Shown here: positions 10,551 through 23,296 of the stretch, one piece after another
Position numbering within the stretch: the first letter of the stretch is position 1
How the letters are laid out: each line of letters opens with the position of its first letter
Origin: a virus
Length of the DNA: 24,861 bases
Direction: 5' to 3' (one strand)
Virus record (IMG/VR): IMGVR_UViG_3300042471_001077
Location: 1 to 24,861 of that record
Position numbers and translations under genes: made by a program
Notes under the pieces: generated by a model
What the model saw: only the letters and a program-made list of their open reading frames with translations
Told to the model about the DNA's origin: nothing
Databases searched by the model: none

Positions 10551-11426
10551 CTATTTCCCGGAAATCTCGGGGAGCATCCTGTGGGGCTCCCGCTTCGGCC
10601 TGACGCGGGGGTCGACATACCAGGTGCTGGCGACCTTCCCACCGCTCCCGGTCGCATGGCCGAGGAACTCCGGGGCATCCCCGCCGGCCGCCGCGATCCA
10701 TGACGCGGCCGATCCCCGCAGCCTCTGGAACCCGACCCGGTCCCCGCGCAACCCGGCCCGGGAGCAGACAGCCCGGAACCGCAGCCACAGGCTGGCCCTG
10801 GCGGTGGGCCACCAGAGGAGCTCCGCCCGGCCGGTGGCGTGAGCCTCGCGGACGCGGTCGGCGGTGGCCTCGGAAAGGGCGATGACGCGATCGTGCCGCC
10901 TGCCCTTCCGACACTCCGTCCGCACCGTGAGGACGTTGCCCTTCAGATCGCTGGTGCGGCAGTCGAGGACCGCACCTATCCGTTCGCCTGACTCCCACAG
11001 CAGGGCCAGCAACGCGCCCCACCAGACACCCCCGGACACAGGCCCCACGGGGTGCGTCTCGGCAGCGGCCGACGCGAACAGACGCCGCAGTTCCTCGACC
11101 GTCCACGCGGTCGGTGTCCGCAACGGCATCGGGGCCGGTGGGCAGACCGGCAGGCGGGGGATCATGCCCCGTTCCCAGGCCAGCCGGGCGAGAGCCAGGA
11201 GCGACGACCGCTCCCGCTCCACGGTCCACGGGGACCGGGTCGCGGCCCGGGCCTCGAGGTGGGCCGACAGCATCAACTCGTCGACCAGATCGTCCACCGT
11301 GGCGGGCCGGCCAAGGTGATCCCCGAGGCGGGCGACGGCCTGATGGTGAAGCCGGGTGGTGTTGGGGCTCCGCTGCCGGAGACGGAGCGGGCGATAGATC
11401 CTGTCGACGAACTCGGTGAGGAGCAT
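10551..11426 (-). CDS. int: Tyrosine-family site-specific integrase
   Basis: 291 residues from ATG (11424-11426), chosen for its GGAGG SD 6 nt upstream; the open frame extends further but lacks a binding site. The N-terminal 105 residues are a SAM-like core-binding domain (FVDRIYRPLRLRQRSPNTTR). The catalytic domain shows Arg149 (WESGERIGAVL), Lys174 (TECRKGRRHDRVI), QRLRG with Arg237, His257 (FLGHATG) and Tyr270 (ASTWYVDP). The usual His of the HxxR box is Gln234, a tolerated variation in phage integrases. It catalyses recombination between phage attP and host attB. It is transcribed away from the repressor, and the tRNA-like attP candidate lies 120 bp upstream of its start. Confidence 0.92.
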   Translation of the reverse strand: MLLTEFVDRIYRPLRLRQRSPNTTRLHHQAVARLGDHLGRPATVDDLVDELMLSAHLEARAATRSPWTVERERSSLLALARLAWERGMIPRLPVCPPAPMPLRTPTAWTVEELRRLFASAAAETHPVGPVSGGVWWGALLALLWESGERIGAVLDCRTSDLKGNVLTVRTECRKGRRHDRVIALSEATADRVREAHATGRAELLWWPTARASLWLRFRAVCSRAGLRGDRVGFQRLRGSAASWIAAAGGDAPEFLGHATGSGGKVASTWYVDPRVRPKREPHRMLPEISGK

Positions 11427-11531
11427 GGTGGACCTCCGATCGATTCTGGATCGCGGTCCAATGCGCTGTGGTGGCCCTCTCCGTCCTAGGAGGGGGGGGG
11501 CGGGGGGGTTACCTGTAGCATTTGGAGGGGA

Positions 11532-11548
11532 TGGGGGGCGGACCCCCA
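11532..11548 (+). repeat. Small GC hairpin flanking the attP candidate
   Basis: TGGGGG (11532-11537) and CCCCCA (11543-11548) can pair over a 5-nt loop directly beside the tRNA-like sequence. It may be part of the integration site or just local G/C-run symmetry; a G-rich tract covers 11490-11540. Confidence 0.3.
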
Positions 11549-11566
11549 CGAATCCTGTCCCCGCCA
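11549..11566 (+). other. attP: Candidate phage attachment site (attP core), tRNA 3'-end-like
   Basis: The 18 bases CGAATCCTGTCCCCGCCA look like the 3' part of a bacterial tRNA gene: the end of the T loop (CGAATC), the T-stem 3' strand and the acceptor 3' strand. No complete tRNA is present, since the upstream bases do not give the matching T-stem 5' strand with GTT. Integrases of this class often target tRNA 3' ends, and the phage copy restores the gene after integration. The site is between integrase and repressor, where attP usually sits. The host tRNA cannot be identified here. Confidence 0.6.
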
Positions 11567-11641
11567 TTCAGTCGATTCGGCCGCACCGCGGCCAGTTCAA
11601 TCAGTAGGACCGTCACGACCGGAAGTCCACTGGCGGTTGAA

Positions 11642-11920
11642 ATGGCGAAACCGCGAAGCAAGACTCGTCGCGTGATCGCCACCAGCAACCGGCACCCGGG
11701 CGGTGCCCCCCGAACCCACCAGTCCTGCCCCCTCGGCGAGCGGATCGAGGAGTTGGCGGCGGCCCGCCGGCTAACGCTCCCTGAGGTGGCGGAGCGGGCC
11801 GGGATCAGCGTCTCGGGGATGAACGACATCCGCCGTGGCCGATTCCGTCCGCGGCTCGACACCCTCGACAAAATCGCCGACGTGCTCGGCGTCTCTTCCG
11901 GTCGCCTCATCTCTGGCTGA
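11642..11920 (+). CDS. XRE-family HTH repressor (cI-like)
   Basis: 92 residues from ATG 11642. The N-terminal 28 residues are basic and Pro/Arg-rich; residues 33-88 are a classic XRE domain: LGERIEELAAARRLTLPEVA, then AGISVSGMNDIRRGRFRP and LDTLDKIADVLGVSS. There is no C-terminal oligomerisation or autocleavage domain, unlike lambda CI. The SD is weak (GGCGG 5 nt upstream). The frame is open back to 11522 through the attP candidate, so an N-terminally extended form is possible. It lies just upstream of, and in the same direction as, the early promoter with its palindromic operator, and it is the best candidate for the immunity repressor. Confidence 0.75.
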   Translation: MAKPRSKTRRVIATSNRHPGGAPRTHQSCPLGERIEELAAARRLTLPEVAERAGISVSGMNDIRRGRFRPRLDTLDKIADVLGVSSGRLISG

Positions 11921-11962
11921 CCGCTGTTTTCCTGCGGAAAGACGCTGTGTCTAGAACTGCTG

Positions 11963-11992
11963 TTGACAAGTCATAGACAGTCTGTCTACAAC
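11963..11992 (+). promoter_or_regulatory. Predicted early (lytic) promoter
   Basis: TTGACA (11963-11968, perfect -35) and TACAAC (11987-11992, four of six matches to -10) are 18 bp apart. The promoter is 43 bp downstream of the repressor stop and drives the replication operon that begins at about 12007-12049. The operator at 11974-11988 overlaps the spacer and the start of the -10, so binding there would block transcription. Confidence 0.65.
11974..11988 (+). promoter_or_regulatory. 15-bp palindromic operator
   Basis: TAGACAGTCTGTCTA is a perfect odd palindrome (7-bp arms around the central T at 11981). A further half-site TGTCTA occurs at 11948-11953, just upstream of the -35, as part of TGTCTAGA. 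Location between -35 and -10 of the early promoter and beside the XRE repressor gene is the usual arrangement of a phage operator. Confidence 0.65.
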
Positions 11993-12048
11993 CCCGCCCA
12001 TCACGCATGGAGCGTGACGCCACGCACGGCGATGGATGGGGGCAGTCG

Positions 12049-12375
12049 ATGGCGCAGGACGCGACTCAACGCATCGAGCGGCAGACCCAGACGCGCAGCA
12101 CGCGCGTCATGGACCTGCACGACGCCGGTCTCACCCGCGAGCAGATTGCACTCTCGCTGTCGCTGGATGTCCGCACCGTCTGGAAGATCGTCGCCCACTT
12201 CACGGGCGGCCCAGGCCCCGGCGATCCGACGCCCGAGGAGATCGCCGACCAATCGTGGCGCATCCGCTGCGGCGAAGTCCGTGTGGCGTCTCGCCACGCC
12301 ACCGGTCGTCGCGTCCTGTCCACCGGCGAGCGAACGATCCCGGCAAAACCGCCCACGCTGAGGAGGGACGCATGA
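12049..12375 (+). CDS. Small helix-turn-helix DNA-binding protein (early gene)
   Basis: 108 residues from ATG 12049 (a G-rich stretch lies 6-12 nt upstream). An in-frame ATG at 12007 would add 14 residues but sits about 15 nt from the -10 and has no SD, unless it is read leaderless. Residues 20-45 hold an HTH, LHDAGLTREQIALSLSLDVR, followed by TVWKIVAHF, of the type seen in resolvase and sigma-like DNA-binding domains. It is the first gene after the operator-controlled promoter, the place of Cro or early activators. Its C-terminal part is basic. The stop overlaps the next start. Confidence 0.55.
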   Translation: MAQDATQRIERQTQTRSTRVMDLHDAGLTREQIALSLSLDVRTVWKIVAHFTGGPGPGDPTPEEIADQSWRIRCGEVRVASRHATGRRVLSTGERTIPAKPPTLRRDA

Positions 12376-12857
12376 GCCGCCTCCGGTCGCCAGCGGTCCA
12401 CATCCAACGTCTCCTGCCGTCGATGGACGACGGCCAGGATGCCGCGTCGATCACGACGCGCTACGTCGCCCGCCGCGCCGTTGTCCGTCAGGCGACGGTT
12501 CGGGCCGATCCGCTGCGACTGCGCATGCCGCCGAGCCTCGATCCGAAAATCCGCACCCTGCTAACTGGCCTGGCCCGCGCTGCCGCGACATGCCGTGCCG
12601 GCATCGACGCCTACTGCCGGCCACGGTCCATCGGCGGTCGCACCGGCGAGCGGATCGCCGCCGGCGATCTGACGATCCTCGACGAGTTTGCTGCCGCGGC
12701 GGGGAATCAGATCGATGAGGTGCGGACCGTCATCGACACGCTGATCGTGCCGAGACGGGCGACGAGTGCCAACCCGGGCAGCCGGGCGAAGGTCGAGGAG
12801 CTGGCACGACGTGCCGCGGACGGTCGCGGCCTGTTTCACGACGGTGATCGGAGGTAG
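12372..12857 (+). CDS. Uncharacterised early protein, helical
   Basis: 161 residues from ATG 12372, with SD GAGGAGGG and an ATGA overlap with the gene before. The protein is Arg/Ala-rich, mainly alpha helical, with a basic first half (VARRAVVRQATVRADPLRLR) and a DEFAAAAGNQIDEVRTVIDT helix later. No cysteine or catalytic pattern stands out. It is directly upstream of the CsrA homologue, whose start overlaps or nearly touches its stop. Function unknown. Confidence 0.5.
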   Translation: MSRLRSPAVHIQRLLPSMDDGQDAASITTRYVARRAVVRQATVRADPLRLRMPPSLDPKIRTLLTGLARAAATCRAGIDAYCRPRSIGGRTGERIAAGDLTILDEFAAAAGNQIDEVRTVIDTLIVPRRATSANPGSRAKVEELARRAADGRGLFHDGDRR

Positions 12858-12859
12858 TG

Positions 12860-13078
12860 GTGCTGCGATTGTTTCGGAACATCGGCGAGACGGTTGTGAT
12901 TCCTTCGATCGACTGCGCGATCACGGTGGAAGACGTGGACGACGACGGCGTGGTGACGCTCACGTTCAACGCGCCGAGGAACGTTGAGATCGCGCGGCTC
13001 GAGGTGTGGCAGAGGAAGCAGAGGGAGATGGGTGCCTCGATCCTGGGAGAGAGGCCGACCGGAACGGTGAGGGAATAG
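12860..13078 (+). CDS. csrA-like: CsrA/RsmA-family RNA-binding translational regulator
   Basis: 72 residues from GTG 12860, which has GGAGG 5 nt upstream; GTG 12857 is too close to the SD. This start gives MLRLFRNIGETVVI, which aligns without gaps to E. coli CsrA MLILTRRVGETLMI. The centre ends in TLTFNAPRNVEIARLEVWQR, aligning with CsrA NAPKEVSVHREEIYQR. The RNA-contacting Leu4, Arg6 and the key Arg44 (here Arg46) are kept, while Arg7 is Asn. CsrA dimers bind GGA in mRNA hairpin loops and block or stabilise translation. A two-residue insertion lies between strands, and the C-terminal 20 residues are extra. It probably acts on phage mRNA, host mRNA or both. Confidence 0.85.
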   Translation: MLRLFRNIGETVVIPSIDCAITVEDVDDDGVVTLTFNAPRNVEIARLEVWQRKQREMGASILGERPTGTVRE

Positions 13079-13089
13079 GAGGACGACTG

Positions 13090-13299
13090 ATGGACGCACA
13101 CGAACGAGAAGCGGCTGGGGCAGTGGCGGCGGTTAGTAACAAGCCACTCGAACCCGGCGAACGCGTGATCGGTTACGCCGAGGGCATGCGATTCACGGGC
13201 ACGCTCTTCGCCGTGCAGGGCGATCGGTGCTACGTGAAGATCGACATAGCGTGGATCACCTGTCGCCCGTGTGACATCGAGCGATACACGGACGGCTGA
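13090..13299 (+). CDS. Small SH3-like protein, function unknown
   Basis: 69 residues from ATG 13090, with SD GGAGGA 6 nt upstream. After an acidic/Ala-rich start comes a compact segment, GERVIGYAEGMRFTGTLFAV, then QGDRCYVKIDIAWITC. This pattern of short beta strands with Gly turns resembles SH3/KOW-type folds. It lies between the CsrA homologue and the GGA-rich leader. The stop codon lies inside the first leader hairpin (13296-13318), so ribosomes ending this gene would disturb that structure. Function unknown. Confidence 0.5.
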   Translation: MDAHEREAAGAVAAVSNKPLEPGERVIGYAEGMRFTGTLFAVQGDRCYVKIDIAWITCRPCDIERYTDG

Positions 13300-13421
13300 C
13301 GTCGCGGAGCGGCGTCAGAGGGAGCCCGCGGAGCGGGTGTGGCATGGATGGATGGCCGGTCGGCGGATGGAGTCGCCGGCTGGGTGTGGATCGAGGACGC
13401 AGGACACGAGGAGGTGTGGAG
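13296..13421 (+). promoter_or_regulatory. GGA-rich structured leader, candidate CsrA target
   Basis: 126 nt between two operon genes with twelve GGA triplets (starts 13306, 13321, 13330, 13346, 13350, 13365, 13369, 13388, 13395, 13402, 13410, 13418). Four hairpins can be drawn. 13296-13318: 10-bp arms, loop GGA. 13325-13337: CCCGC/GCGGG, loop GGA. 13356-13383: 10-bp arms with two G-T pairs, loop GATGGAGT. 13404-13417: ACAC/GTGT, loop GAGGAG, which is the SD of the Sak4-like gene. GGA in a hairpin loop, including the SD, is the known CsrA recognition layout. The first two hairpins share the decamer CGCGGAGCGG. CsrA binding is inferred. Confidence 0.55.
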
Positions 13422-14378
13422 ATGGCTCTGAACGTAATTCGCGGCCGACGCCGCGTGGCAGTGCGGGCGGTGGTCTACGGGACCGAGGGGGTCGGGAAAT
13501 CGACGCTCGCGGCGTCGTTCCCTGACGCTGTGATTCTCGACACGGAGGACGGCACCAACCACCTGGACGTCGCCCGCATCCCGTGTGCGGACTGGGCGAC
13601 GCTCAAGGCGACCGTTTCCCAGTTGGGCGTGGAAAAGCACCAGTTCAAGACGGTGGTGATCGACACCGCCGACTGGGCCGAGCGGTCGCTCGTGGAAGAC
13701 ACGCTGAAGAAGGAGGGCAAGCGGTCGATCGAAGACTTCGGCTTCGGCAAGGGATGGGTGTTGGTCGGCGAGCGGTTTGCGGAGTTGCTCCACGGCTGTG
13801 ACCGCCTCATCGGCCTGGGCATCAACGTGGTGTTCGTGGCCCACTCGATCGTCAAGCGGACCACGCCACCAGACCAGACGGACGGGTGGGACCGCTACGA
13901 GCTGAAGTGCTCGAAGCAGGTGAGCGCGTTGCTCCGCGAGTGGTGTGACCTGCTGCTGTTCGCCACGTTCGAGACGCGGCTCGTGGCCGGGAAGGATGGC
14001 CGCACCCGGGCCACTGGAGGGAAGAGCCGCGTGATGTTCGCCGAGCGGTCGGCAGCCTTCGACGCGAAGAACAGGTTCGGCCTGCCAGAGAAGATCCCGA
14101 TGTCGATCGACGCCCTGGCGGCGGTGTTCACGCCCGAGTACCCGCAGCAGCCAGGTTGGCTCCAGCGGGTGCAGGCTGCGACGACGGTCCGGGAATTGGA
14201 GTCGATGAGGATGCGGGCCGACGACGCCTACTCCGCTGGCGAGTTGAACGAGGCACAGCGCCGGCGTCTGAGTGCCGAGATCGACAAGCGGTTTTCCGAG
14301 ATCACAAAGATCGAGCCCGAGGACACCGCCACCGAGCCATTCGATTCCGCCGAGGTGAACGCGGAGGCTAACCAGTGA
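13422..14378 (+). CDS. Sak4-like RecA-fold ATPase (single-strand annealing/recombination)
   Basis: 318 residues from ATG 13422, with SD GAGGAGG 7 nt upstream. Walker A is GTEGVGKST (20-28) and Walker B is KTVVIDT (76-82), with a later FVAHSIVKR sensor-type segment. This is the AAA_24 / Sak4 group of phage RecA-like core ATPases, which help SSB-coated single strands anneal or recombine. The C-terminal 80 residues carry a helical TTVRELESMRMRADDAYSAG region and an acidic end. An SSB-like gene follows two genes downstream, the usual Sak4 partner. An ATG at 13344 would extend the protein through the leader but has no SD. The stop overlaps the next start. Confidence 0.8.
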   Translation: MALNVIRGRRRVAVRAVVYGTEGVGKSTLAASFPDAVILDTEDGTNHLDVARIPCADWATLKATVSQLGVEKHQFKTVVIDTADWAERSLVEDTLKKEGKRSIEDFGFGKGWVLVGERFAELLHGCDRLIGLGINVVFVAHSIVKRTTPPDQTDGWDRYELKCSKQVSALLREWCDLLLFATFETRLVAGKDGRTRATGGKSRVMFAERSAAFDAKNRFGLPEKIPMSIDALAAVFTPEYPQQPGWLQRVQAATTVRELESMRMRADDAYSAGELNEAQRRRLSAEIDKRFSEITKIEPEDTATEPFDSAEVNAEANQ

Positions 14379-14644
14379 GCAACACGCCACAGTCCGTGTG
14401 CGGAGTGCTGGCCGCTGTCCACCTGCGCGGTGGCCCGCACGATGGAGCGATGACACCTCCGGTTTTCCCGCTTGAGTCGGCACCAGTGACAATTGACCTG
14501 CCGTCCGCACGAACGGAAGACGGTCACACCTACGGCCGCGAGACGCGGTATCGGTGGCGTGGTTCGTGGCACGGCGAGAACTGCGTGATCCTTGTCTATG
14601 CGTTCGATCGGTACGTCACGGAGGACTGCGATGGGGTGGGCTGA
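14375..14644 (+). CDS. GGPHDG-motif small phage protein
   Basis: 89 residues from GTG 14375 (GTGA overlap). The core is LRGGPHDGAMTPPVFPLE, followed by a beta-rich region ending in CVILVYAFDRY. The GGPxDG motif followed by a Pro-rich strand and a tyrosine near the end is found in many small uncharacterised proteins of phages and high-GC bacteria. Function unknown. It lies between the recombinase-like and SSB-like genes, so a role near DNA metabolism is possible. Confidence 0.5.
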   Translation: MSNTPQSVCGVLAAVHLRGGPHDGAMTPPVFPLESAPVTIDLPSARTEDGHTYGRETRYRWRGSWHGENCVILVYAFDRYVTEDCDGVG

Positions 14645-15514: not shown

Positions 15515-16042
15515 ATGACCTACCTCACCGACCTTGAGCAGCTCATCGCCTGTGCCCCCCTACCGTCCCTGCGGGGCTACGCCAGCGGCAGCGTCCGGGC
15601 CGTGATCCTCGACGCCTGTGACTCCGGCAAGGTCGGGGCTGCCGACGCGCTGCAGCTGTCAAGGCAGTGCGACCACCGGATCGACACGGAGGGGGTGCAG
15701 TTCGGCCACCCCCGGCGGCCCGAGCCTTCGGCCCCGGCCGCGGAGCCGTCGCGGGCGCCGCTGCCGCCGCCGCTGATCCTCGAGGATCGGGAACTCGTCT
15801 CGTGCAGCCAGCGGCGATGGTCACCCGACGAGCCGATTCGGATCGCGGACACCGCCTGGGAGCAGCTGTCACGCCTTGAGAACTACGCGCTCGCGATCGA
15901 ACTGACGGACCTGCAGTCGTGTGACGACCAGTGGGACCAGCGGCGGAAGGATGCGATCTGGGCCGCGGTGTGCATCGAGCTGGAGTTGACGATGGCGGCC
16001 AGGGGGCTGCGGCTGCGGAAGGAGGTGGCGAGTGTCGCGTGA
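15515..16042 (+). CDS. Uncharacterised protein
   Basis: 175 residues from ATG 15515, with SD AGGAAG upstream. Residues 1-60 are helical (YLTDLEQLIACAPLPSLRGY), then a Pro/Ala-rich linker (PEPSAPAAEPSRAPLPPP) leads to a helical C-terminal half with WEQLSRLENYALAIELTDLQ and DDQWDQRRKDAIWAAVC. It is the first gene after the large hairpin and overlaps the winged-helix gene by 11 nt. Two helical domains joined by a flexible linker suggest an adaptor, but function is unknown. Confidence 0.5.
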   Translation: MTYLTDLEQLIACAPLPSLRGYASGSVRAVILDACDSGKVGAADALQLSRQCDHRIDTEGVQFGHPRRPEPSAPAAEPSRAPLPPPLILEDRELVSCSQRRWSPDEPIRIADTAWEQLSRLENYALAIELTDLQSCDDQWDQRRKDAIWAAVCIELELTMAARGLRLRKEVASVA

Positions 16043-16346: not shown

Positions 16347-17316
16347 ATGGCTCGCCATCGACCTGGGCCTCCCCGAGAAGCCCGAGGTTCAGGAGCTCGT
16401 CGACCTGACCGGCGAATCGGTCGAGGTGGTCGTGTACCGCCTGTACCGGCTCTGGGGATGGGCCTCCCTCCACTCCGCGGACGGCACCGCCCGCACGACA
16501 CCAGCTCGGCTGGCCCGGACGATCGGCGGAGACGAGGCGTGGTTCCGGGCGGTGGCGGAGGTGGGTTGGCTCGAGATCGACGACCAGGCGGGGACGGTGA
16601 CCGTCCCCGGGTGGGATCGCCGGTTTTCCCAGGCGGCGAAGGCCCGGATGCAGGCCCGGGACCGCGAAAAAGCCTACGACGAGAGGGTCCAGCGTCCACC
16701 CGCGCGTGAGCGCGGGAAGTCACCCGCGCGCGAGCGCGGGTCCGCTCCCGCGCCTGAGAGTGGGAGAGGAGAGGAGAGGAGAGGAGAAGTTCCTCCTCCT
16801 CCTCCGCGTGAGGCTGCGCCGGAATCCGAGCAGGCATGGCCGGCGCTCCGGGACGCCTGGAACGCCCAGGATGCCCCTGGGAAGCCCTGGAGGCACCCGC
16901 AGCCGCCAGACGGTCTGGCCGACCGGCTCCGGGAGCCTGGCTGGCTGGACGAGGCCGTGGCGGCGATTCCGCGGCTCCGTGGGGCGAGGTTCTTCGCCAC
17001 CCCGGTGACGCTGATCCAGTTCGCCAAGCCGGGCTTCGTCGAGCGGCTGGTCGGCGGGCAGTACGACGAACCGAAGTCGCGGCCCCCCGGCACCCCTGGC
17101 GACCGCCCGTCCGCGGAGGAGGCGGCCCGTCGGTTCGAGGCCGGAAGCCGCGAGCAGGCCCGCCGCCGGCGGGAGGCGGAGGCGGCCCGGGCTGCGCGGC
17201 CGAAGGCGAAGGCGTCGAAGCCAGAGCTGCCGCTGCCTGATCCGGTCAGTGATGACGAGTTTGAGCGACGGAAGGCGGCATTGATGCAGCAACTCCAGGA
17301 GGCAGCGACCACATGA
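16336..17316 (+). CDS. Replication-initiator-like protein with embedded repeats
   Basis: 326 residues from ATG 16336, with SD AGGAGGGTGAC. Residues 1-100 form a winged-helix-like domain: WLAIDLGLPEKPEVQELVDL, TGESVEVVVYRLYRLWGWA, and WFRAVAEVGWLEIDDQAGTV, as in phage replisome-organiser or DnaD-like initiator N-termini. A low-complexity region (about 120-155) has the 8-residue repeat PARERGKS / PARERGSA / PAPESGRG. The C-terminal half includes AWPALRDAWNAQDAPG and a FFATPVTLIQFAKPGFVERL helix, then a charged tail. Its probable job is origin binding and helicase loading. The DNA of the repeat region has iteron-like properties, as in lambda O, where the origin is inside the initiator gene. The beta-clamp gene follows. 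Confidence 0.65.
   Translation: MAGEWLAIDLGLPEKPEVQELVDLTGESVEVVVYRLYRLWGWASLHSADGTARTTPARLARTIGGDEAWFRAVAEVGWLEIDDQAGTVTVPGWDRRFSQAAKARMQARDREKAYDERVQRPPARERGKSPARERGSAPAPESGRGEERRGEVPPPPPREAAPESEQAWPALRDAWNAQDAPGKPWRHPQPPDGLADRLREPGWLDEAVAAIPRLRGARFFATPVTLIQFAKPGFVERLVGGQYDEPKSRPPGTPGDRPSAEEAARRFEAGSREQARRRREAEAARAARPKAKASKPELPLPDPVSDDEFERRKAALMQQLQEAATT
16697..16764 (+). repeat. Three iteron-like 24-bp direct repeats, candidate origin
   Basis: Repeats start at 16697, 16721 and 16745, exactly 24 bp apart. Copies 1 and 2 (20-nt cores) differ at one base; copy 3 matches copy 1 at 16 of 20. Each of the first two has inverted arms CCCGCG and CGCGGG around a 6-nt centre. They lie inside the initiator-like gene and are followed by a purine tract. 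This resembles iterons inside the lambda O gene, although the region is GC-rich and lacks the usual AT-rich unwinding element. Confidence 0.45.
16763..16805 (+). repeat. Purine tract of GGAGA units followed by a pyrimidine tract
   Basis: About five copies of GGAGA (16763-16788), a short AAGT turn, then TCC repeats (16791-16805). The two tracts can partly pair, and polypurine-polypyrimidine DNA can also form triplex or slipped structures. It lies directly after the iteron-like repeats and codes for the Glu/Arg and Pro-rich linker of the initiator-like protein. It is prone to slippage. Confidence 0.5.
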
Positions 17317-18368
17317 AAGCCAAGATCCCAATCACCAGCATCAAGGCGTCCCTCGCGGCGACTGCCCCGGCGGTCGGCCGCCAGGGGGTGACGACGGCAG
17401 TCCTGATCCGTGGAGGCGTGATGGCCGCCACCAATGGCGAGATCCGGATCGATGTGGAGTTCCCCTCGTCGGATATTTCCTGCCTGCTGCCGCACAAGCG
17501 ATTGCAGGCGATCGTAAGCGCCGCTACGGGCGACGAGATGACGATCGAGCCGAAGGGTGAGTCAGTGAGGCTCACCGCCGGCAGCGGCTCGTGGACGCTG
17601 CCCACGGAGGACTGGCAGACGTTCCCCGCTGGGATCGCCGGCGAGGCCAGGAAGATCGGCACGGTCGAGGCCAGCGTCCTGGCGGACATGCTCCGGTCGG
17701 TGTTGCCATGCACTGATTCGGAGTCATCCCGCTATGCCCTCGGTGCCGTGCTCCTCGAGATGGCGGACGGAATCTTGCACGCGGTGGCGACCGACGGTCG
17801 CCGGCTGGGGGCCGCGACGACGCAGGCGCAGGCGGAAGACGGCACGCTCCTGATTCCGCAGGCTGCCGCGTCGGCTCTCGTGCGACTGCTTGAGTCGGCC
17901 GCGTCCGTGGCGATCATGCGGACTGGGCCGGAGGCGGTGTTCGCTGCCGACAACGGAGCGCGGCTTGTGGCACGGCAGATTGAGGGGCGGTTTCCGAGAT
18001 GGAGAGAGGTGATTCCGAAGACTGAGGCGGCGGCCTGCATCGTCGACGCTGGCGAACTGCTGTCAGCGGTGCGGCAGGCTTCGATCGTCACCAACGAGCA
18101 GTCGAGGGCGGTGCGGTTCGGGTTCGGCGACCAGATCACTCTGACCGCGAAAAGCGCCGAGGCTGGCGAAAGCCGTGTTCGGTGTGACGTGGTGACGGCC
18201 GGGCCGCGCTGCACGGTTGGGCTGGACCCGCGCTTCGTCGCCGAGTTTCTCAAGGTCGTTCCCGCCGGCGAGACGGTGTCGATCGCGGCGGTGGATGCCG
18301 ACACTGGGTGTGTGCTCCGTGCCGGGCGGTGGGTGGGCGTGGTGATGCCGATGGCAATGGAGGCTTGA
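17313..18368 (+). CDS. dnaN-like: DNA polymerase III beta-subunit (sliding clamp) homologue
   Basis: 351 residues from ATG 17313 (ATGA overlap), slightly shorter than bacterial DnaN (about 366). It shows the three-domain clamp pattern: an N-terminal domain ending in LPTEDWQTFPAG; a middle domain with SSRYALGAVLLEMADGIL, AVATDGRRLG, and RQIEGRFPRWREVIPKTE; and a C-terminal domain with VDAGELLSAVRQASIVTNEQ, DPRFVAEFLKVV, and the ending VGVVMPMAMEA, equivalent to the MPMR end of DnaN. The clamp encircles DNA and tethers polymerase. A phage copy beside the initiator would favour phage replication. It may recruit a host polymerase; none is encoded in this window. Confidence 0.85.
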   Translation: MKAKIPITSIKASLAATAPAVGRQGVTTAVLIRGGVMAATNGEIRIDVEFPSSDISCLLPHKRLQAIVSAATGDEMTIEPKGESVRLTAGSGSWTLPTEDWQTFPAGIAGEARKIGTVEASVLADMLRSVLPCTDSESSRYALGAVLLEMADGILHAVATDGRRLGAATTQAQAEDGTLLIPQAAASALVRLLESAASVAIMRTGPEAVFAADNGARLVARQIEGRFPRWREVIPKTEAAACIVDAGELLSAVRQASIVTNEQSRAVRFGFGDQITLTAKSAEAGESRVRCDVVTAGPRCTVGLDPRFVAEFLKVVPAGETVSIAAVDADTGCVLRAGRWVGVVMPMAMEA

Positions 18369-18371
18369 ACG

Positions 18372-18896
18372 ATGAGTAAATGCGACCAGCACGGGTGCGA
18401 AGAGGTTGGCCGTTGGGGACCAGCGGACGGCGGCGAAGAGCGGAGGTGCGGCCTGCACCTGCCGACGAACGGCAAGCCGTTTGTGGTCCGTGATCCGCAG
18501 GCGGCACCCACGCCACCAGTGGACGACACGATCCTCGCCGCGGTCTGCCCGCCCGGGTGGCGGCGGTCGCCGCTCGACGGCCGGCCGGTCATGCCCTGCC
18601 TGGGAAAGCTGCTGTTTCCGTGCGAGCCAGGCGAACTGCCGACGATCGGCGACATGATGCAGCAGGTGGATGAGCTGCACGGCTACGCCGATTTGCTCAA
18701 TCCGTGCTGGATCTCACTGATACAGGCCGTGCTCGCAGACGCGATCCACAACCGGCGGCGAGGCCGTGAGGGGCTTTCGCAGGCGGCGGAGGCTGCGCTG
18801 TCGAAGTGCATCGACGCGATGCTGCGATCCCACGGCGAGGTGTGGATCAGGAAGACACCCAGAGGCAAATGGGAGGAGGGGGGGGGCAATGGCTGA
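18372..18896 (+). CDS. Protein with N-terminal zinc-finger-like motif
   Basis: 174 residues from ATG 18372, 3 nt after the clamp gene. The first 30 residues contain a Cys/His cluster, CDQHGCEEV then RCGLHL, typical of small treble-clef-like zinc motifs in phage proteins (C-x4-C...C-x2-H). The middle has a PGWRRSPLDGRPVMPCLGK segment, and the C-terminal half is helical (IQAVLADAIHNRRRGREGLS) with a basic end. Possibly nucleic-acid binding. Its end overlaps the start of the next gene by 8 nt. Confidence 0.5.
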   Translation: MSKCDQHGCEEVGRWGPADGGEERRCGLHLPTNGKPFVVRDPQAAPTPPVDDTILAAVCPPGWRRSPLDGRPVMPCLGKLLFPCEPGELPTIGDMMQQVDELHGYADLLNPCWISLIQAVLADAIHNRRRGREGLSQAAEAALSKCIDAMLRSHGEVWIRKTPRGKWEEGGGNG

Positions 18897-22633: not shown

Positions 22634-22905
22634 TGCCTGAGATCGACATCATCGACCGGGCCAACGAGCTGATCACGTCGGGGTACGAGAGCGAACCGGC
22701 CGACGACGTTGTCCACGGCCTGATCGCCGAAGTGCTGGCGCTGCGTGGTTTGGTGTCGCGATCCGACGCAGAGGTGTCGGTGCTGATCCGGGCGAACGGC
22801 CGATGGTCAACGCTGGCGGGGTTTCTGTACGGCGTGTTGGAGATGAACTGCACGGGTTTTGCGATGCAGATCGCACAGAAGAAGTGGGATGACGCACATG
22901 CGTGA
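22633..22905 (+). CDS. Small helical protein, function unknown
   Basis: 90 residues from ATG 22633, with GAGGAG just upstream. It is helical: IDIIDRANELITSGYESEPA, VVHGLIAEVLALRGLVSRSD, and NCTGFAMQIAQKKWDDAHA. A weakly hydrophobic middle segment (TLAGFLYGVLEM) is not long enough for a clear membrane span. The end is close to, and may overlap, the start of the nuclease gene that follows. No family recognised. Confidence 0.45.
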   Translation: MPEIDIIDRANELITSGYESEPADDVVHGLIAEVLALRGLVSRSDAEVSVLIRANGRWSTLAGFLYGVLEMNCTGFAMQIAQKKWDDAHA

Positions 22906-22918
22906 GGGAGGGCTGAAC

Positions 22919-23296
22919 GTGGGCTCAATGCAAAAACGCAAGGGCAAGGTCGGCGAACGTGAGGCCGCGGCCGAACTCGGCACGCTCCTCGGTTGTCATG
23001 CCCGCCGGGGCGTTCAGTACCACGGCGGGCCGGACTCGCCCGACGTGGTGCTCGACGGGGTCAACGTCCACGTCGAGGCGAAGCGAACCGAGACGCTGTC
23101 GCTCTACGTCGCGGTTGACCAGGCGGTGAGCGATGCCCCCACGGGCTCCGTGCCGATCGTGTGGCACCGGCGGAACCGCCGGGAATCACTTGTGGTAGTT
23201 CGGACGTCCGATCTCGTGAGACTCGCCCGCGAGGTGGTGCGGGCGTCGAGAAAGCCAGACGGGCTTGCATCAACGGGTCCTTCCGGCGGGTCGTAA
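22919..23296 (+). CDS. Hjc-like Holliday junction resolvase (PD-(D/E)XK nuclease)
   Basis: 125 residues from GTG 22919, chosen for GGGAGGG about 8 nt upstream; ATG 22928 and ATG 22898 are alternatives. The motif order fits archaeal-type Hjc and related phage nucleases: KGKVGEREAAAELG (Glu13/Glu15), ARRGVQYHGGPDSPDVV (Asp42) and HVEAKRTE (Glu53-x-Lys55), then SLYVAVDQAVSDAPTGSVPI and VWHRRNRRESLVVV. These residues bind metal and cut branched DNA. A phage uses such an enzyme to clear recombination junctions before packaging, and the terminase gene follows. Other PD-(D/E)XK nucleases are possible. Confidence 0.7.
   Translation: MGSMQKRKGKVGEREAAAELGTLLGCHARRGVQYHGGPDSPDVVLDGVNVHVEAKRTETLSLYVAVDQAVSDAPTGSVPIVWHRRNRRESLVVVRTSDLVRLAREVVRASRKPDGLASTGPSGGS

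Follow-up and report, generated by a model that had tools for sequence, protein, structure and literature searches.

A conserved GGA-hairpin leader before csrA and sak4 suggests CsrA-type control of recombination in a group of uncultivated phages

Phage csrA genes are already known. According to the portions of the published papers that were available, csrA occurs in 30 of 2517 phage genomes (PMC7366521), many phage copies exist in GenBank and IMG/VR (PMC8450108), and one has been described in a Vibrio phage (PMC12038007). The targets proposed for these proteins, as far as the same portions go, are host functions such as CRISPR-Cas (PMC8450108). As the available part of another paper describes, GGA triplets in hairpin loops and over Shine-Dalgarno (SD) sequences are binding sites of CsrA (PMC7652899). 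The locus analyzed here raises the question of whether a phage could place its own genes under CsrA. The window, by which we mean the whole stretch of DNA analyzed, is a complete IMG/VR virus record of 24,861 bases in which a csrA homolog is followed by a small open reading frame (ORF), a GGA-rich leader and sak4 (Table 1). It also holds an integrase gene and a repressor-like gene of the helix-turn-helix (HTH) type, and therefore the phage is probably temperate. No sigma70-type promoter was found on either strand of 11900-14500; other promoter types were outside the scope of that search. Elsewhere in the window, 17313-18368 and 22859-23296 match a phage DNA polymerase processivity factor and a RusA-like resolvase.

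Table 1. Positions and supporting evidence for genes and RNA features of the window
Feature	Position	Strand	Evidence or remark
Integrase	10551-11567	-	Beside Cro/C1-type HTH gene
Cro/C1-type HTH repressor-like gene	11522-11920	+	Adjoins integrase
csrA homolog, 72 aa	12860-13078	+	PF02599, key residues, AlphaFold model
Small ORF, 69 aa	13090-13299	+	No Pfam or PHROG match at E 0.01
Five-GGA two-hairpin element	13290-13349	+	Descriptor match, GGA spacing, covariance model R1
Hairpin 1, 10 bp, GGA triloop	13296-13318	+	Local fold; loop GGA 13306
Hairpin 2, 6 bp, GGA triloop	13324-13338	+	Local fold; loop GGA 13330
Hairpin 3, 11 bp, loop ATGGAG	13356-13383	+	Local fold; loop GGA 13369
Hairpin 4, 4 bp, loop GAGGAG overlapping SD	13404-13417	+	Local fold; loop GGA 13410
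sak4 SD, AGGAGG, contains a GGA	13409-13414	+	
sak4, Sak4-like ssDNA-annealing ATPase	13422-14378	+	PF13479, E 8.5e-49; phrog_124, E 3.1e-47

An earlier note on this DNA had described the first gene of the block as a CsrA that keeps Leu4, Arg6 and the equivalent of Arg44, and this description was borne out. The protein meets the requirement for membership in the CsrA/RsmA family (PF02599; E 3.4e-8, 33.8 bits, cut-off 27), and alignment A2 shows that it keeps all three residues, which are invariant or near-invariant across the 18 aligned phage CsrA proteins. It is divergent, with 23-34% identity to the 17 others. Its start codon was picked by homology; the longest ORF begins at 12857. An AlphaFold model (pLDDT 87.5, pTM 0.61) met the test for a CsrA fold, and its top three PDB matches were RsmE-RsmZ SL1, RsmE-hcnA SD and RsmA-RsmZ (E 1.1e-3 to 1.4e-2 for the matches, none at or below 0.001; probability 1.00). 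As a single-sequence query against viral_contigs, the window CsrA returned no matches; tblastn against 50,697 phage records gave none for it and likewise none for a better-conserved phage CsrA.

The stretch between the small ORF and sak4 is enriched in GGA. Twelve GGA triplets lie at 13297-13421, as the earlier note had counted, and this is the maximum among + strand windows of equal length (125 nt). For 13300-13421, the 12 GGA compare with 5.9 in dinucleotide shuffles, the 10 unpaired GGA with 3.8 (each reached by 0 of 1000 shuffles), and the 4 GGA in loops with 0.55 (reached by 3 of 1000), so that the check on loop GGA proposed in that note was passed. Folding of 13290-13440 gave a z-score of -3.0, with 1 of 200 shuffles equally stable. 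All four of the predicted hairpins, each with a GGA in its loop, were found in the local fold. Five GGA belong to the element, at 13290, 13306 (loop 1), 13321 (linker), 13330 (loop 2) and 13346. When 13200-13500 was folded, most pairs of hairpin 1 had probabilities of 0.96-1.0 and those of hairpin 2 about 0.7; the loop GGA at 13306, 13330 and 13369 were unpaired at 0.9-1.0, and the outer GGA at 13290 and 13346 at only about 0.4. The prediction that the last hairpin presents the SD in its loop held for the short fold, in which the SD GGA at 13410 is unpaired, but not for longer ones: the probability of hairpin 4 falls to about 0.2 in the fold of 13200-13500, and that of an unpaired SD GGA is 0.22 there and 0.05 in a still longer fold. 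A good SD contains a GGA in any case. A coding stretch of the + strand at 15921-16040, just preceding an ORF at 16032 that appears winged-helix-like by eye, has five loop GGA in the local fold and ties for the loop-GGA count; when more sequence is folded, its GGA become largely paired and the structure is not stable.

Relatives were collected with Sak4. A scan of viral contigs contributed 80 of 110 loci, and a wider scan with a Sak4 profile added at least 79 locus ids not seen before, of which 13 lie on records that had already been found. The virus loci scanned total 1.1 Mb, duplicates included; we counted as duplicates those loci whose central 500 bases recur in another, and raw counts still include them. 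PF02599 was detected at E 0.001 in 33 of 40 and 18 of 40 Sak4 records (33 and 16 above the cut-off), in which csrA usually lies no more than about 0.7 kb upstream of sak4; csrA was present in 30 of the 79 loci of the wider scan.

We described the element as two hairpins with GGA in both loops and further GGA before, between and after them. This descriptor was written after leaders had been seen, as were the covariance model and the set of sak4 leaders used below. It matches the window once, at 13296-13340, and 200 shuffles of the whole + strand give 4 matches. On the + strand, 59 of 160 virus loci match, one being a copy of the window; with duplicates removed, 42 of 129 non-identical loci match besides the window. 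Each locus has a single match, and every one lies before csrA, sak4 or the gene upstream of csrA: 23 sit 50-61 nt before csrA, 11 sit 66-117 nt before sak4, and 8 precede the gene upstream of csrA, 1.0-1.5 kb before sak4 with csrA between. No match was found on the minus strands of the virus loci or in 80 bacterial Sak4 loci (737 kb). Leaders judged present by eye in L009, L017, L038 and L222 are missed by the descriptor. The five GGA of the window are spaced 0/16/31/40/56, inside the range of the 37 other distinct elements; for the 38 together the spacing is 0/13-16/28-33/38-42/55-58, and L240 is an outlier at two sites (25 and 52).

Covariance model R1, built from 11 csrA leaders with the window excluded, found its best match in the window at the sak4 leader (13288-13349, 23.3 bits, E 1.4e-5). 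A second match lies at 1120-1178 (16.1 bits, E 0.003). In 72 other virus loci, the 24 best matches were all at leaders before csrA, sak4 or the upstream gene, and the 25th was a non-leader sequence (L007:587-650, E 0.007). Because the second window match and the L007 sequence also score, the E-values of R1 are optimistic. R1 had no match below E 0.01 in the 80 bacterial loci.

A quick tree built from 83 Sak4 proteins confines both csrA and the element to a single group of 46 rows (SH-aLRT 99); in the stretches fetched for the other 37 rows, neither was present. The tree omits near copies, short proteins and rows having less than 700 nt upstream of sak4, and L238 is marked in it as lacking csrA, though its csrA overlaps the sak4 start. 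The best of the 80 bacterial Sak4 loci are in Verrucomicrobia. None of the 80 has csrA in the fetched stretch; PF02599 was found in 2 of the 16 whole genomes behind 16 of them.

The architecture of the element is conserved. From 5′ to 3′ it consists of a GGA, hairpin P1 with a GGA loop (often ACGGAT), a linker GGA, hairpin P2 with either a GGA triloop or an AGAGGA-type loop, and a further GGA, followed by further hairpins and the SD. Alignment A3 (type I) holds 22 of 26 distinct leaders from 27 candidates, omitting three near copies (L043, L048 and L244) and one divergent leader (L021). GGA is found before P1 in 22 of 22 rows, in the P1 loop in 21 (L009 has lost it), in the linker and the P2 loop in 22 each, and after P2 in 19. 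P1 is paired in 95.5% of cells, against at most 43% when the stem is slid, and 7 of its 9 pairs are altered on both sides, with 37 such cells compared to 9.6 after shuffling. RNAalifold, given A3 without a structure, recovered P1 together with a portion of P3, and 11 of its 15 pairs show compensatory changes; it did not predict P2, the two loop classes of which are mixed in A3. Considered by class, P2 pairs in all 14 triloop rows; among the 8 hexaloop rows, each of the five inner pairs of P2 is formed in 6 to 8. In alignment A7, which replaced an alignment that mixed two P1 classes (A6), all 16 pairs hold in 11 of 11 rows, and P1 and P2 have 7 pairs changed on both sides. An alignment of sak4 leaders was too gappy for counting pairs. 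The stems thus covary around fixed GGA, and the hairpins proved to be conserved in related phages, a check that the earlier note had also proposed. A second type of csrA leader (type II; alignment A4, 14 of 15 distinct leaders, L025 omitted) has two hairpins with loop GGA, often ACGGA, and a GGA linker, and its hairpins surround the stop codon of the upstream frame (for example, L020:4665-4782, L233:2686-2803 and L241:1873-1990). A type II leader pattern returned nothing from viral_contigs, known loci included; since loci in hand were also missed, that pattern is too strict.

We compared loop GGA among classes of leader. In 28 non-redundant csrA leaders there are 51, compared to 11.9 +/- 3.2 in shuffles (reached by 0 of 60); this set retains csrA leaders without a descriptor match, namely those of the window, L002, L017, L027, L029, L059 and L214. 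The mean per 120-nt leader is 1.8 for these 28 and 2.2 for 10 sak4 leaders, which were picked after GGA counts had been seen. It is 0.6 for the sak4 leaders of 15 other csrA-bearing phages (the window and L017 excepted, and not limited to descriptor-positive ones), 0.46 for 120 of 148 other leaders from the same loci and 0.27 for 78 bacterial sak4 leaders. The ordinary leaders of the same loci have a mild excess of loop GGA (55, compared to 35.1 shuffled; 0 of 20), and bacterial sak4 leaders exceed their shuffles in GGA count and in unpaired GGA (0 of 20 each). Since both classes exceed shuffles, part of any GGA excess is general, and it is the level rather than the mere excess that marks the element.

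The element is linked in position to csrA. A pattern of the element that includes no csrA sequence found 32 stretches in viral contigs, and csrA follows 104-113 nt on in 31; the remaining contig is cut off 107 nt from the start of the element. This pattern was derived from csrA leaders, and some of the matched contigs were already known. The element also occurs in records in which csrA was not found. A PF02599 search of 15 further records had no match in 14. Among these 14, a descriptor match precedes sak4 in fragments of 32.4, 26.1, 21.1 and 19.6 kb and in four that are shorter, and inspection by eye shows a GGA-rich hairpin leader in another fragment, of 33.6 kb. The same arrangement, a descriptor match before sak4 and no csrA found in the record, holds for L004, L005, L006, L026, L053 and L054. 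Because bearers have csrA close to sak4, csrA is absent from its usual place in such records. These records may be fragments; if csrA is truly absent, then the CsrA that is read must be that of the host. Leaders with GGA hairpins immediately upstream of sak4, with csrA not found, occur as descriptor matches in L212, L225, L232, L240 and L004, and sak4 leaders of this kind were seen by eye in L222 and L223, whose records also yielded no csrA.

We conclude that the sak4 leader of the window is probably a conserved phage leader RNA that serves as a CsrA-binding platform and controls translation of the csrA/sak4 block. Binding of CsrA, repression, the identity of the acting CsrA and the biological trigger are inferred; there are no binding or expression data. 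The two hairpins would offer a GGA in each loop, and three more GGA flank or separate these hairpins. One CsrA dimer would span two sites, a GGA in a loop and another close by, before taking the SD GGA of the next gene, which would block translation until CsrA is titrated or its level drops. By analogy with CsrA-repressed leaders of E. coli, the gene that follows the element should be repressed by CsrA. For the largest group of relatives, in which the element is followed by csrA and then by sak4, we propose autoregulation of the csrA-sak4 block. In the window, csrA and the small ORF precede the element, and we therefore propose that CsrA would control sak4 only. The idea in the earlier note that the phage regulates its own recombination genes is thus supported as a reading. 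Feedback on csrA fared differently: the leader stands on csrA in 23 of the 42 loci, but in the window it stands on sak4, and because no descriptor match precedes the window csrA, support for feedback is limited to the relatives and does not extend to the window. We can also suggest, with less than even confidence, a complete viral Csr circuit, in which the phage's own CsrA and an RsmZ-like five-site RNA in cis on the recombination block would let the free CsrA of the cell gate phage recombination and replication. Relatives that lack csrA keep the RNA on sak4 and would therefore, as part of such a circuit, read host CsrA directly, with the metabolic state of the host as the switch.

The element might instead be a sponge that mainly titrates host CsrA and frees host mRNAs during infection, its position being incidental. 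Five GGA in loops and linkers do resemble sponges of the CsrB/RsmZ type, and a sponge would be at home in the records without csrA, the four largest fragments included; against this stand the single descriptor match per locus and its position, 50-61 nt before csrA in 23 loci and 66-117 nt before sak4 in 11, with the other 8 elsewhere in the block. No terminator-like site was found on the + strand of 11900-14500, around the window leader, which also speaks against a sponge; no free small RNA is therefore predicted, and that candidate was rejected. We regard a sponge as unlikely. A function at the level of DNA, as single-stranded hairpins for Sak4 or as a replication or recombination signal, would fit the neighboring recombination gene and the retention of the element in csrA-less relatives, and single-stranded DNA hairpins would be equally strand-specific and covarying. 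Yet the distance of the element from the csrA or sak4 start codon is constrained, the conserved loop letters GGA are the CsrA core, and the element is absent from Sak4 phages outside the group and from the 80 bacterial Sak4 loci, all of which make a DNA-level role highly improbable in our judgment.

It remains that coding constraint or GC-rich composition might create such repeats without any RNA function. The 3′ end of the upstream open frame runs into P1 and P2 in many csrA leaders, so that selection on the protein may act on part of these sequences as well, and peptides like TDRxG recur; as for composition, the mild loop-GGA excess of ordinary leaders points the same way. The loop-1 GGA, however, stands in differing codon phases: among 35 elements it is in phase 2 in 23, phase 1 in 6 and phase 0 in 4, and outside the frame in 2, with the longest open frame upstream taken as the upstream ORF. 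Type II leaders have it in phase 0 without exception (10 of 10), and the window has it outside the upstream open frame. Moreover, stem changes are compensated even where they alter the peptide, and dinucleotide shuffles fail to yield the excess. We give this explanation next to no credence.

A CsrA-binding leader RNA, the reading that we prefer, has counterparts in bacteria. In the available part of the source, E. coli CsrA is described as repressing its own mRNA via four sites, and the E. coli csrA and glgC leaders as having four CsrA sites, one of them over the SD and, in glgC, one in a hairpin loop (PMC7652899). The phage leader differs from these in lying within a csrA-sak4 block and in conserving a five-GGA two-hairpin architecture over differing stems. 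The small RNAs RsmZ and CsrB display GGA both in hairpin loops and in single-stranded stretches, an arrangement that suits CsrA dimers. The phage leader resembles them in this respect, but it lies in cis before a gene, with no sign of a terminator and no Rfam match: Rfam families of CsrA sponges had no match at gathering score in the window and no relevant match at E up to 1 in 10 loci. The TwoAYGGAY motif (RF01731) is, as far as the accessible text of its report goes, a predicted CsrA-binding RNA with suggested hairpins that have GGA loops (PMC4333381), and these loops resemble the ACGGAT loops of many phage csrA leaders. RF01731 did not match the window at the gathering score, nor any of 10 loci, a copy of the window included, at E values up to 1.

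Published accounts of phage CsrA/RsmA, in the portions available, name neither a leader RNA nor a link to sak4. We found no report of such a phage leader in the literature on phage-encoded CsrA/RsmA and no paper on CsrA together with Sak4, most subscription papers being outside the scope of the search. In these phages, a conserved putative RNA target is found next to csrA, in front of either that gene or the recombination gene of the phage. If the proposal is correct, the element represents a viral RNA family, without an Rfam match in the searches made, and CsrA-type translational control of a phage recombination block; it would also provide a directly testable link from the Csr state of the host to phage replication, including which CsrA is read, that of the phage or that of the host. 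These data suggest that a group of uncultivated phages controls recombination by a small RNA-based CsrA circuit.

One virus record of 77 kb (G049, which holds L115 and L130) carries two csrA genes, at 18585 and 62138. In three other loci (L009:2465-2770, L037:61-375 and L048:2294-2596), CsrA has a C-terminal tail with a Cys/His-rich DAHECxCGR motif that is perhaps metal-binding.
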